This document shows positions 8,001 to 12,609 of a stretch of DNA of 64,000 nt, in pieces (positions within the stretch are counted from its first letter, which is position 1; each line of letters begins with the position of its first letter). A model generated the notes under the pieces. The model saw only the letters and a list, made by a program, of their open reading frames with translations. It had not been told where the DNA came from and made no database searches. Both the position numbers and the translations under genes were made by a program. The DNA comes from Cellulomonas sp. PhB143 (GTDB lineage: Bacteria; Actinomycetota; Actinomycetes; Actinomycetales; Cellulomonadaceae), in NCBI RefSeq assembly GCF_003752595.1, contig NZ_RKIJ01000009.1, positions 372,001 through 436,000 on the forward strand, read 5' to 3'.

Positions 8001-10610
8001 TCAGGGCTCGAGCACCAGGGTGTCGTCGGTCGCCGAGGCGACGGCCTCGCGCCCGAACGGCCAGGCGAACGTCTTCCCGTTCGCCCACGCCTCGAGCTGG
8101 TCCGTGTAGTGGTCCGACGCCGGGTGTCCCGAGACCCCGGTCACGGTGACCCAGGAGGACCGGTCGAGGTCGCCGAGGTCGACGACCATCCGCATCGAGG
8201 GTCCCGTGGTCGCCGCGAAGCCTTCCGCCGCGTCCCACCCGATCGCGTCGACGACCGACGGGCTGCCCGGCAGCTGGACCGCGTCCGGGTTGACGATGCC
8301 GCGCACGAACGTCGGCGTGGCGTCGCCGCCGAGCACCGGGTGCTTCAGCGAGAGCTGGTGCAGGCGGCCCCAGTCCCAGTCGTCGGTGCGCTTGCCGAGC
8401 TCGGTCGTGAGCTCGAGCCGGGCGGTGACCATCGCCTTCTTGAGCACCTCGTCGCGCGTCTCGACCAGACCGAGCGTCGTGCGGTCGTCCCAGAACGCGT
8501 CCCGCGGCTTCTCCATGAGCCCCTGGACGACGGCGAGCCACCGGCTGTCGCCCGACGGCCGCATGGACGCGGGCACGTCGTCCCAGAAGGTGAGCTGGAG
8601 GATGTTGCGCCAGACCGCCGCGAAGTAGGCGGCCGCCGAGGAGTCCTCGTCCGTGCGGTAGTCCCACGAGGCGAGCAGCTTCTGCCCGTCCGCGTCGAAC
8701 CCGTGGCCGATGTCCAGCTTGAGCAGCGTCGGCACGAGCGCGTCCGCGAACGGGCTCCAGTCGTCGAGCTGCATCTGCTGCATGGTGGCGACGCTGACCG
8801 GTCGCTTCGCGTCGACCTCCTTCTGCAGGAGGGTGCGGATGCGCTGCGAGCGGTAGCCGTAGTCCCAGTCGTTCGTCAGGAACGGGCCCCGGCCGCGCGG
8901 CTCGACGGCCTGGTTCGCCGCGACGAGGAACCCCTCGGCGGGGTCGACGACGCGCGGCATGTCGTCCGGGTCGACGTAGCCCTGCCAGTCGTAGCGGCTG
9001 TCCCAGCCCGGGCGCGGCCAGGAGCCGTCGCTCGGCACGGGCCCGGCGACCGTCCGGCGGACCGGGACCTTGCCCGGGGCCTGGTAGCCGATGTCCCCGT
9101 CGACGGTCGCGAAGACGATGTTCTGCGCGGGGACGTCGAACTGCTTCGCGGCCGCGCGGATGTCGTGGGCGGTCGAGGACCGGTCGATCGCGAACACGGC
9201 GTCGGCCGTGTGGCCCGGGTCGAGGGCCGTCCAGCGCAGCGAGACGGCGCGGTCGCCGATCTGCTCGTCGGAGCCCGGAGCGCGCACGGCGGCGTCGGTC
9301 CCGTCCAGGGCTCCCGAGACGATCGGGCCGTGCACCGTGCTGCGCACGTCGATGGTCACCGGGTCGGAGCCGGCCACCCGGATCGTCTCCTTGCGGGTCT
9401 CCAGCGGGACCCACTTCCCGTCGCGCAGGTAGTCCTCGCCCTGGACGCGCTCGACGAAGAAGTCCGTGACGTCGGCGCCCATGTTCGTCAGGCCCCACGC
9501 GAGCTGGCCGTTGTGCCCGATCATCACGCCCGGGAAGCCCGCGAAGGAGAAGCCGGAGACGTCGTAGCCGCAGTCGGGGCCGACGGAGGTGCAGTGCAGC
9601 CCCACCTGTGCCCAGATGCTCGGCACGCCGAGGGCGAGGTGCGGGTCGTTCGCCAGCAGCGGCTTGCCCGACGCCGTGTGCTCGCCGGCGACCACCCACG
9701 AGTTGGAGCCCGACGCGTCGCCGCGCCCGACGAGCTCGGGGATCGCCGCGAGCGCCTTCTCGGCGGAGGAGACGGCGGAGGTCAGCGCGTGCGTGCCGAG
9801 GTCGTCCGAGATCCCGGCGTCCCGCGCCGAGGTGGCGCTCGCGCCCGCGACGTCGGTGCCGTCCAGGATCGGGGCGTTCGCCACCCCGTCGTACTGCGGG
9901 AAGAGCTCGTCGACCTTGTCGACGTCGCGCAGCGTGGAGTAGGACAGGGCGCGGTCCAGCTCGTCGTCGTAGTTGCCGCGCAGGTCCCACGCCATCGCCT
10001 TGAGCCACGCCAACGAGTCGACGGGGTCCCACCGCTCCGGGTCGTCGAGGTCGACCTGCATGCCGAGCACCGTGTACTCGACCGCGGTCTCGCCCATGCT
10101 GCGCCCGTCGAGGTAGGCGTTGACGCCCTGCGCGTAGGACTGGAGGTTCGCCTTGGTCGAGTCGTCGAGCAGGTCCCACTCCTGCTGGGCGACGTGCCGC
10201 CACCCGAGGGTCCGCGTGACCTTGTCGGCGTCGATCGCCTCGGGGACGTCGCCGACCAGCTCGGCCAGGCGGCCCGCCGTCACGTGGCGGCGGTAGTCCA
10301 TCTCGAAGAAGCGGTCCTGCGCCTGGACGTAGCCCTGGGCCATGAACAGGTCGTGGTCGCTGGAGGCGTAGACGTCCGGCACGCCCTGCGCGTCGCGGCG
10401 CACGGTGACCTGGGACTCCAGGCCGGCGACGTCGAGCGAGCCGTCCGTCGTCGGGAGCGGACGGCGCAGCACGACCACGGAGAAGACCGTCACGGCGACC
10501 AGCGCGAGGACCACGACGACCGCGACGGTGGTCACGCCGACACGGAGCACGGATCGGGTCCGTCCCGCGTCCGGGGCGGACGGGGCGCTGGGCGGGAGGT
10601 CGGCGGACAC
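8001..10610 (-). CDS. Penicillin acylase family protein (Ntn-hydrolase), membrane-anchored
   Basis: An 869-residue N-terminal-nucleophile hydrolase. Family members mature by self-cleavage into alpha and beta chains and hydrolyse amides such as beta-lactam side chains or acyl-homoserine lactones. Seen: membrane anchor at residues 24-48 (VGVTTVAVVVVLALVAVTVFSV), alpha-chain motif AQGYVQAQDRFFEMDYRR, and the beta-chain start GSNSWVVAG with the catalytic Ser near residue 302, followed by PLLANDPHLAL. So an enzyme anchored at the outer face of the membrane is likely. It starts with GTG six bases after TAGTCT (10617-10622), hence probably leaderless. The substrate cannot be read from sequence. Confidence 0.93.
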   Translation of the reverse strand: MSADLPPSAPSAPDAGRTRSVLRVGVTTVAVVVVLALVAVTVFSVVVLRRPLPTTDGSLDVAGLESQVTVRRDAQGVPDVYASSDHDLFMAQGYVQAQDRFFEMDYRRHVTAGRLAELVGDVPEAIDADKVTRTLGWRHVAQQEWDLLDDSTKANLQSYAQGVNAYLDGRSMGETAVEYTVLGMQVDLDDPERWDPVDSLAWLKAMAWDLRGNYDDELDRALSYSTLRDVDKVDELFPQYDGVANAPILDGTDVAGASATSARDAGISDDLGTHALTSAVSSAEKALAAIPELVGRGDASGSNSWVVAGEHTASGKPLLANDPHLALGVPSIWAQVGLHCTSVGPDCGYDVSGFSFAGFPGVMIGHNGQLAWGLTNMGADVTDFFVERVQGEDYLRDGKWVPLETRKETIRVAGSDPVTIDVRSTVHGPIVSGALDGTDAAVRAPGSDEQIGDRAVSLRWTALDPGHTADAVFAIDRSSTAHDIRAAAKQFDVPAQNIVFATVDGDIGYQAPGKVPVRRTVAGPVPSDGSWPRPGWDSRYDWQGYVDPDDMPRVVDPAEGFLVAANQAVEPRGRGPFLTNDWDYGYRSQRIRTLLQKEVDAKRPVSVATMQQMQLDDWSPFADALVPTLLKLDIGHGFDADGQKLLASWDYRTDEDSSAAAYFAAVWRNILQLTFWDDVPASMRPSGDSRWLAVVQGLMEKPRDAFWDDRTTLGLVETRDEVLKKAMVTARLELTTELGKRTDDWDWGRLHQLSLKHPVLGGDATPTFVRGIVNPDAVQLPGSPSVVDAIGWDAAEGFAATTGPSMRMVVDLGDLDRSSWVTVTGVSGHPASDHYTDQLEAWANGKTFAWPFGREAVASATDDTLVLEP

Positions 10611-10640
10611 GGTGCGAGACTACCCCGGCGTCCCCCGTCG

Positions 10641-10672
10641 TATGATTGGCACTCCGCCTGCCGGAGTGCCAG
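10641..10672 (+). promoter_or_regulatory. CIRCE-like HrcA operator over a TATGAT -10 box, upstream of FmdB
   Basis: TTGGCACTC (10646-10654), a nine-base spacer, then GAGTGCCAG (10664-10672). The arms pair at 8 of 9 positions and the nine-base spacer is exactly that of the CIRCE element (TTAGCACTC-N9-GAGTGCTAA). The -10 box TATGAT (10641-10646) abuts the left arm, so bound HrcA would block transcription of the gene at 10742. Finding this before fmdB rather than groES or dnaK is unusual. Confidence 0.7.
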
Positions 10673-10741
10673 TGCTCCGGGGGCCGCCGGCCGCCGCGCA
10701 GCAGCCGGGAACCACGTCGCTCGACACCATCGGGAGGGTCC

Positions 10742-11122
10742 GTGCCGACCTATGCCTACGCCTGCACGGCGTGCGACCACCGCTTCGACATCCACCAGTC
10801 GTTCACGGACGACGCGCTGACGACCTGCCCCGTGTGCGGCGGGCGCCTGCGCAAGGTCTTCTCGTCGGTGGGCGTGACGTTCAAGGGCTCCGGCTTCTAT
10901 CGCACCGACTCCCGCTCGGGCTCCGGTTCGCGGTCCGGCGGCGGCTCGACCACCGCCAAGAGCGGGTCGAAGGACGGCGGCTCCGGCTCCTCGTCCGGCT
11001 CGGGCTCCTCCGGCTCCGGCTCCTCCTCCGGCGGGTCCGGCAGCAGCACGTCGGGCTCGGGGTCGAGCTCGTCGCCCTCCGGCGCCAGCAGCTCCTCGAG
11101 CTCGAGCTCGCCCTCCGACTGA
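10742..11122 (+). CDS. FmdB-family zinc-ribbon protein with Ser/Gly-rich tail
   Basis: A small protein of 126 residues. The first 45 form the FmdB/CxxC_CXXC_SSSS zinc ribbon, with Cys 8, 11, 29 and 32 (ACTAC...CPVCG) and the typical start MPTYAYAC. From about residue 55 it turns into a low-complexity tail of Ser and Gly (GSGSSSGSGSSGSGSSSGG) that is probably disordered. The family has no settled role. The GTG at 10742 has GGGAGGG just upstream. The CIRCE-like element about 70 bases upstream predicts heat-shock or misfolding control, which would fit a redox- or metal-linked stress role; this is inference. Confidence 0.9.
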   Translation: MPTYAYACTACDHRFDIHQSFTDDALTTCPVCGGRLRKVFSSVGVTFKGSGFYRTDSRSGSGSRSGGGSTTAKSGSKDGGSGSSSGSGSSGSGSSSGGSGSSTSGSGSSSSPSGASSSSSSSSPSD

Positions 11123-11127
11123 TCGGC

Positions 11128-11155
11128 GTCCGGCGCTTCCTCGGGAGCGCCGGAC
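11128..11155 (+). terminator. Hairpin after the FmdB gene
   Basis: Perfect 10-bp stem GTCCGGCGCT / AGCGCCGGAC with an eight-base loop, six bases past the stop. No T-run follows, as is common in high-G+C actinomycetes. Confidence 0.55.
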
Positions 11156-11256: not shown

Positions 11257-12048
11257 GTGACCTCGACCCCCTGGCTGTCCCGCCCCGACCCGCCCCACGC
11301 GGGCGCCCCGGTCCCGCGCAGCACCTGGCGCCGGCGCTCGCGGGCCGCGCTGCACCGGTCCCGGTTCCTCGTCGCCGCCGCGGCCGCGGGCCTCGCCACG
11401 GCGATCGTCGTGCACGCGCTCGCCCCTCCCCCGCCCCGGACCGCGCCCGTCGCGGTGGCGCGGCACGAGATCGCGGCGGGCGCCGCCGTCGGGCCCGACG
11501 ACGTGAGGGTCGCCCGCTATCCCCTCGCCCTGGTTCCCGCCGGCGCCGTCGACGCGGCCGAGGCGCTCGCCGACGCGCGTGCCGCCGTGCCGATCGGCGA
11601 GGGTGAGCCGCTGCTGCCGTCCGTCACCACGAGCGGCGGCGCGGCGGCGTCGGGCCCGCCGGGGACCGTCGTCGTCCCGGTCCGGCTCGCCGACCCGGAG
11701 GTCGCCGCCGTCCTCGCACCCGGGGACCGGGTGGACCTGGTCGACGTGGCGCCCGACGACGGCGAGGGCAGCGAGGGCACGGCGCCCGGCGACAGCACAG
11801 AGCACACCAAGGAGACGGAGGATGCCGACGACGCCGAGCCTCCGTCCGACCCGACCAGGCCCCAGACGCTCACCCAGGGCGCCGTCGTCGTCCCGGGAGG
11901 CGCCGAGCCCCCGGGGGACGACGGGGTCCTCGGCACGGGCGCGGCCTCGGCCCCGACGCTCGTCCTCCTCGCCGTCTCCGCGGAGGACGCCCCGGGGGTC
12001 GCGCGGGCGGCGTCGGCGTCCCGGATCGCCGCGATCCTCGTGCCATGA
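11257..12048 (+). CDS. SAF-domain protein, CpaB/RcpC-like
   Basis: A 263-residue protein with a basic N-terminus, one membrane helix (about residues 37-55, FLVAAAAAGLATAIVVHAL) and an SAF domain (about 63-120: VAVARHEIAAGAAVGPDDVRV), as in Flp-pilus assembly protein CpaB. A long acidic, disordered linker (residues 165-215) splits the second half, which resumes with TLVLLAVSAEDAPGVARAASASRIAAILVP, the CpaB-type C-terminus. No other pilus genes are in the window, so a pilus role is uncertain. GTG 11257 lies six bases after TAGCGT (11245-11250) without a Shine-Dalgarno sequence: probably leaderless. Confidence 0.8.
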   Translation: MTSTPWLSRPDPPHAGAPVPRSTWRRRSRAALHRSRFLVAAAAAGLATAIVVHALAPPPPRTAPVAVARHEIAAGAAVGPDDVRVARYPLALVPAGAVDAAEALADARAAVPIGEGEPLLPSVTTSGGAAASGPPGTVVVPVRLADPEVAAVLAPGDRVDLVDVAPDDGEGSEGTAPGDSTEHTKETEDADDAEPPSDPTRPQTLTQGAVVVPGGAEPPGDDGVLGTGAASAPTLVLLAVSAEDAPGVARAASASRIAAILVP

Positions 12049-12093
12049 CACCCTCGTGGGCGATCCCGTCGCCCCGTCCCCAGGAGGATGTCC

Positions 12094-12609
12094 ATGGCCA
12101 GCAGCGTCGTCACCGGATTCAAGGAGTTCGTCCTTCGCGGCAACGCCGTCGACCTCGCGGTCGGCGTCGTCATCGGCGCCGCGTTCACCGCGATCGTCAA
12201 CGCGATCGTCGACGGGCTCATCAGTCCGCTGATCGCGGCCATCTTCGGCAAGCCCGACCTCACCGGCCTGTGGAACATCACGCTGCGCCGGTTCGACGAC
12301 GGCAGCGTCGCCCAGGTCAGCGTCGGCCTCATCCTCAACGCGATCCTGCAGTTCCTGCTCGTCGCCGCGGCGGTCTACTTCGTGATCATCGTGCCGATGA
12401 ACTCGCTCGCCGCGCGCCGCAAGAAGAGCACGGTCGTCGAGGAGGAGCCCAAGTCGTTCTCCGACGAGGTGCTCGCCCTGCACGAGATCCGCGACCTCAT
12501 CGCCGCGGGCGCGGTCGCCGCGGACGGCCCCGCCGGCGGAGCCGGCCCCGGCTCCGGCTCCGGCTCCGGCGAGGGCGGCGGCGTCGGGCGCCACGCCGAG
12601 AACGGCTGA
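12094..12609 (+). CDS. mscL: Large-conductance mechanosensitive channel MscL
   Basis: A stretch-activated channel that releases solutes on osmotic downshock. 171 residues with the two MscL helices: GNAVDLAVGVVIGAAFTAIVNAIVDGLISPLI (about 16-48) and ILNAILQFLLVAAAVYFVIIVPMN (about 83-106). The C-terminal helix ends in a Gly/Ser tail that makes it longer than the usual 130-150 residues. ATG 12094 is chosen because AGGAGG (12082-12087) is six bases upstream; ATG 12088 directly abuts that site. It follows the SAF gene by 45 bases. Confidence 0.97.
   Translation: MASSVVTGFKEFVLRGNAVDLAVGVVIGAAFTAIVNAIVDGLISPLIAAIFGKPDLTGLWNITLRRFDDGSVAQVSVGLILNAILQFLLVAAAVYFVIIVPMNSLAARRKKSTVVEEEPKSFSDEVLALHEIRDLIAAGAVAADGPAGGAGPGSGSGSGEGGGVGRHAENG

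Follow-up and report, generated by a model that had tools for sequence, protein, structure and literature searches.

An inverted repeat at positions 10646-10672 of the window (the whole 64-kb stretch of Cellulomonas sp. PhB143 DNA that was analysed) is very probably, judging from sequence comparison, a working CIRCE operator of the fmdB gene, bound by the repressor HrcA. The central link between HrcA and fmdB is largely known already from the Mycobacterium tuberculosis orthologue; added here are the breadth of that link, the exchange of promoters under the operator, and a collection of one-sided operators. Our survey of genomes indicates that the link is common in the class and not peculiar to the lineage of the window. 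Literature searches (subscription papers lay mostly outside their reach) found nothing treating CIRCE, HrcA and FmdB together, or the 'FmdB family' with HrcA, and the accessible parts of PMC3489674 and PMC10012870 make no mention of FmdB or CIRCE.

Positions 10641-10672 read TATGATTGGCACTC-CGCCTGCCG-GAGTGCCAG. Within them the predicted HrcA site, identified by consensus scan and conservation and assigned to neither strand, has the form TTGGCACTC-N9-GAGTGCCAG, with the left arm at 10646-10654, the spacer at 10655-10663 and the right arm at 10664-10672. The arms are complementary at eight of nine positions and the inner core of six plus six bases (GCACTC/GAGTGC) is perfect; compared with the consensus TTAGCACTC-N9-GAGTGCTAA there are three mismatches in 18 bases, every one in the outer three arm bases. 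This is the sole consensus match with three or fewer mismatches in the window, and 100 shuffles produced none. The -10 box TATGAT (10641-10646, plus strand), a direct reading that keeps a fixed register in relatives, shares its final T with the first base of the left arm at 10646; a search for a recognisable, canonical -35 element of the fmdB promoter found none. The end of the operator lies 69 nt from the GTG of fmdB. A sequence-only reading had proposed for the repeat an exact CIRCE geometry, an overlap with the -10 box and fmdB as the gene that follows, and all three hold: the arms and spacer are 9-9-9, one T belongs to both elements, and the next gene is fmdB.

The fmdB gene (10742-11122, plus strand) starts with GTG at 10742, behind a Shine-Dalgarno-like GGGAGGG (10732-10738, plus strand, by direct reading) that stands 3 nt ahead of the start codon, and encodes 126 aa. 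Its product is an FmdB zinc ribbon (TIGR02605, 71.8 bits with a cut-off of 31.3; PF09723, 58.4 bits), in which the cysteine pairs C8-x2-C11 and C29-x2-C32 are separated by 17 residues (CxxC-x17-CxxC), and it carries a C-terminal tail that is Ser/Gly-rich as judged on composition only. The search for a structural relative of the protein gave one marginal match, 2i13_A 'Aart' (E 0.00099), which was set aside.

We take this protein to be the orthologue of M. tuberculosis Rv0991c, or Ruc. According to the accessible text of Becker et al. 2020 (PMC7448276), Ruc binds zinc and is intrinsically disordered; in its oxidised form it prevents aggregation, and it promotes refolding by the Hsp70 system. 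By the same text, ruc is a direct target of HrcA repression, hrcA mutant cells contain abundant Ruc, and heat induces the gene through SigH, whose site overlaps that of HrcA. The name FmdB has no occurrence in that accessible text. The window cysteines 8, 11, 29 and 32 coincide in position with the cysteine variants of Ruc described there, and the legend of its Fig. 2 gives the N17 spacing between the cysteine pairs of Ruc (PMC7448276). Further likenesses are the HrcA site over the promoter, the co-regulation with GroES and GroEL (here predicted from the sites), and the presence of SAF and MscL genes near fmdB also in named Mycobacterium loci. There are differences as well: the window protein has a Ser/Gly-rich tail of about 76 residues past the first 50, whereas the accessible account gives 7-61 for Ruc homologues (PMC7448276), and M. 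tuberculosis adds a SigH input, whereas the window has TATGAT and no GGAA[TC]-N17-19-GTT. Ruc is said to work like Hsp33, the redox chaperone of other bacteria, although by the same paper's account, as far as accessible, the two are dissimilar in sequence (PMC7448276). The sequence-only reading had called FmdB poorly understood and fmdB not a chaperone gene. The second statement was wrong, since the window FmdB appears to be the orthologue of an oxidation-activated chaperone, and the first is overtaken by the report of Ruc as an HrcA-repressed, heat-induced and redox-regulated chaperone (PMC7448276, accessible text). By inference from M. tuberculosis Ruc, the window protein would have an oxidation-dependent chaperone activity of its own.

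The genome (3.2 Mb in 17 contigs) yields one FmdB match and one HrcA match. The idea of HrcA control hung on the genome encoding the repressor at all, and it does so at 178.9 bits (G000:C6:166495-167193), in a gene whose product of 351 aa shows a helix-turn-helix match; against PF03444, the DNA-binding model for HrcA, the score is 19.5, slightly below the cut-off of 21. The perfect core occurs exactly four times in the whole genome, and a backwards control pattern not once. As judged from Pfam-tested neighbourhoods, the four copies precede the chaperonin-10 gene groES (Cpn10; C3:425947), the chaperonin-60 gene groEL (Cpn60; C1:442698), hrcA (C6:166146) and fmdB. With one mismatch allowed there are 12 genome sites versus 10 for the backwards control, so that genome-wide only perfect cores stand out and isolated one-mismatch sites elsewhere in the genome are uninformative. 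The accessible text of a 2021 paper (PMC8557902) lists groEL2, groES-groEL1, rv0991c-rv0990c and hrcA-dnaJ2 as HrcA targets in M. tuberculosis, with the rv0991c-rv0990c operon regulated by HrcA; the four sites of our genome correspond to this published set one for one. The fmdB site shares its 9-9-9 geometry and core with the chaperonin and hrcA sites of the same genome and, presumably, their repressor, but its right arm ends in CCAG whereas the consensus and the local groES site end in CTAA. Upstream of groEL there are two CIRCE cores 35 bases apart, one of them with a single mismatch (L003 1466-1521; G000:C1:442663-442718).

Conservation was followed in 184 genomes, made up of 39 (our own and its relatives) and 148 class members, with three shared. 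The gene, called by a TIGR02605 match, is found in 173 of them and lacking in 11; it occurs in 37 of the 39 and in 139 of the 148. Scoring took the best match per genome only, over 400 bases upstream or less at some contig ends. When up to one core mismatch is allowed, 136 of the 173 genomes have CIRCE ahead of fmdB: the core is perfect in 73 and has a single mismatch in 63. The other 37 have no such site. Among our own genome and its relatives the site is present in 30 of the 37 that bear the gene. None of 173 reversed upstream stretches had such a site, nor did any of 13 FmdB paralogues, which are part of the second matches listed; shuffles gave 3 in 3460 (for operator and promoter counts alike, single bases were shuffled, not dinucleotides). 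The core is conserved in a sequence-specific manner in 39 of the 49 families having the gene, and among members of the window's family it is kept, whereas the 9-base spacer differs from one to the next. Scanning sister genomes, as the sequence-only reading had advised, found the operator kept in 4/4 of the genus, counting the genome of the window itself, and in 22 of 24 gene-bearing genomes of the family, 25 having been searched. Loss of the repeat in relatives that keep the gene is thus confined within this family to two genomes, G004 and G018. The prediction that FmdB belongs to the HrcA regulon in this lineage is strongly supported by these comparisons; what falls away is its restriction to the lineage.

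The best 80 of at least 591 named loci, a selection that leans towards close relatives, carry the operator in 69 cases. Within those best 80, the operator-bearing loci include Cellulomonas, Cellulosimicrobium, Mycobacterium, Nocardia and Rhodococcus, as well as Gordonia, Pseudonocardia, Arthrobacter and Micromonospora, and the 11 without operator include Mobilicoccus, two Nostocoides, Haematomicrobium and Pseudolysinimonas. Beyond the class the operator is seldom seen: of 27 loci, taken from 27 of the 52 matching genomes there, 26 had a readable start, and three of these carry it.

Downstream of fmdB lie two conserved neighbours on the plus strand, a CpaB-like SAF-domain gene (11257-12048) and mscL (12088-12609). 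Among 117 loci searched, the window's included, SAF is matched in 65 and MscL in 68, and the fmdB-SAF-mscL neighbourhood is common to the window and to Mycobacterium, Nocardia and Pseudonocardia loci. In Mycobacterium SAF is matched weakly, with E about 1e-5 to 1e-7, and MscL is on the opposite strand in four mycobacterial loci (L226, L241, L258, L262). A G+C-rich hairpin of 10 bp (11130-11153, plus strand) begins 8 nt past fmdB; the 86-nt stretch around it folds with z -3.26, and 1 of 200 shuffles folds equally well. With no T run present, the search for an intrinsic terminator after fmdB found no terminator-like site, though the hairpin may mark a transcript end ahead of the SAF gene.

Upstream, the promoter region of a divergent penicillin acylase gene (8001-10610, minus strand) adjoins the operator, and this raises the question of which gene the operator serves. 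HrcA at the single site might repress both divergent promoters. On the geometry, HrcA lying over 10646-10672 could obstruct polymerase at the -35 region of the acylase, and the acylase may be co-regulated because CIRCE abuts that region. The acylase promoter is only putative, its TAGTCT box being a weak motif, and we know of no link between penicillin acylase and heat shock; we therefore regard such shared control as rather unlikely. The TAGTCT stands 6 nt before the acylase GTG (window 10608-10646), and a leaderless transcript is possible there.

Far less probable is that the operator belongs to the acylase with fmdB a mere bystander. This reading can point to the minus-strand TAGTCT (10622-10617), whose position before the acylase GTG (10610-10608) makes CIRCE abut the -35 place, and to an acylase match beside fmdB in 20 of 24 loci of the window's family, the window included. 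Against it, three loci (L010, L014, L040) have the operator and no acylase match, and three others (L011, L025, L195) an acylase match and no operator. Moreover, 61 of the 69 operator-bearing loci among the best 80 of at least 591 named ones lack an acylase match within about 1.5 kb on each side, and the -10 box that keeps a fixed register points towards fmdB. Since the operator tracks fmdB across loci, its role as an acylase element was rejected. DNA rich in G+C often contains inverted repeats, but a chance or structural repeat (an mRNA hairpin, for example) that is no HrcA site is hardly credible and was rejected, given the lack of a consensus match in 100 shuffles, the three other perfect cores of the genome lying before groES, groEL and hrcA, and the sequence-specific core conservation in 39 of 49 families.

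The promoter under this operator differs from lineage to lineage. TAnnnT ends exactly at the first operator base in 66 of the 136 operator-bearing regions, among them all 22 from the window's family; each of the twelve further registers tried gave at most five, and regions with shuffled flanks 151 in 6800. Of the 69 operator-bearing loci among the best 80 of at least 591 named ones, 16 show it. The motif GGAA[TC]-N17-19-GTT, which we take to be a SigH/SigR promoter, abuts the operator in 22 of the 136 regions (10/10 in family f34, 6/9 in f19, 2/22 in the window's family; 19 in 6800 shuffles). Among the same 69 named loci from the best 80 of at least 591 it is found in 39, always with a spacer of 18 bases. 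Loci L203, L214, L215 and L219 are examples of a SigH/SigR-like promoter abutting the operator. By lineage, then, the promoter is SigH/SigR-like in mycobacteria, nocardiae and f34, and of the TAnnnT type in the window's family. In the window a SigR-type promoter was rejected, there being no GGAA[TC]-N17-19-GTT in it; the genome nonetheless encodes a SigH-type factor (357 bits). HrcA control is therefore the more constant part, and the underlying promoter the part that changes. This promoter difference under a conserved operator may be new.

A second variation concerns the operator itself. The window operator has a symmetric core. In 62 of the 63 one-mismatch fmdB operators the deviation lies in the left half, on the side of the promoter, and in one it lies in the right half. 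The left-half deviations fall at the seventh base in 55 cases (C to G in 51, C to A in 4, C to T in none), giving GCAGTC or GCAATC, and at the ninth and last base in seven, all in f19 (7/9 of that family), whose operators resemble those of named Mycobacterium and Nocardia loci. The seventh-base changes span 12 families (f22, f25-f29, f32, f33, f35, f42, f46 and f49); L055, L063 and L073 are example loci. The groES genes of such genomes have a perfect-core CIRCE in 26 of 26 scored, from 28 searched among the 55 seventh-base-purine genomes, which were chosen for that purine and cover these 12 families only; G105 and G122 were dropped from the scoring for their weak Cpn10 matches. In seven of the 26, groES has a further site whose core carries one mismatch, located in the right arm in three cases and in the left arm in four; none of these mismatches falls on the seventh base. 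The state of the seventh base probably changed more than once, because it varies within Pseudonocardia (of six loci among those listed, one has GCAGTC and five GCACTC) and within f42 (two genomes with G, four with C and four without a site).

This one-sided pattern looks like gene-specific selection, and weaker HrcA binding by the one-sided operators would be the simplest reading. That the change from C to a purine makes a better transcription start is not claimed: the -10 ends at arm position 1, so position 7 lies near -1 to +1 and the fit is loose. We hold in about equal balance the wider proposal that the fmdB/ruc operator is under a selection of its own, distinct from that on the chaperonin operators, which would tune HrcA repression or fit the start site and, with interchangeable promoters, would let heat and disulphide-stress inputs be combined differently in each lineage. 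The one-sidedness of fmdB operators beside a perfect groES core may be new; searches, with subscription papers mostly outside reach, found no paper titled on one-sided CIRCE sites in actinobacteria.

The 37 operator-less genomes among the 173 include the two of the window's family, and all sampled gene-bearing genomes of f17 (four), f20 (five) and f41 (ten). HrcA was searched for in our own and the 148 class genomes, a sample outside which seven operator-less relatives lie, and was matched in 142 of the 148. All 30 operator-less genomes of the class sample have an HrcA match, eight of them partial. Evidently, loss of HrcA does not explain the loss of the operator, and HrcA control of fmdB is not obligatory. 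In genus g65 of f41 (eight genomes of 1.3-1.4 Mb), HrcA is matched partially, from about profile position 124, and fmdB is without CIRCE; the regulator may be decaying in these small genomes. The two other f41 genomes have a full-length HrcA match, and still the site is absent. Conversely, G060, G069 and G166 have the operator and no HrcA match, likely on account of sequence missing from the assemblies (80, 94 and 86% complete).

By analogy with M. tuberculosis, HrcA would be expected to bind the site and repress fmdB in this organism as well, with induction by heat and a chaperone role for the product. HrcA would sit on 10646-10672 as a dimer, masking the -10 box together with the region where fmdB transcription starts and so blocking RNA polymerase from initiation. 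Heat or protein-damage stress would cause HrcA to lose its activity; for M. tuberculosis, the accessible text of PMC7448276 proposes that proteasomal degradation of HrcA is needed. Upon relief FmdB would be made together with GroES, GroEL and HrcA, and, once oxidised, this protein of zinc ribbon and disordered tail would keep unfolded proteins from aggregating and aid their refolding by Hsp70.

If so, a gene usually labelled "FmdB family zinc ribbon" would be tied to protein quality control across a large bacterial class. The one-sided operators would form a natural series on the contribution of each CIRCE half to repression, and the breadth of the operator's occurrence suggests that the HrcA-Ruc link of M. 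tuberculosis, thereby open to study in harmless species, is a general actinomycete feature.
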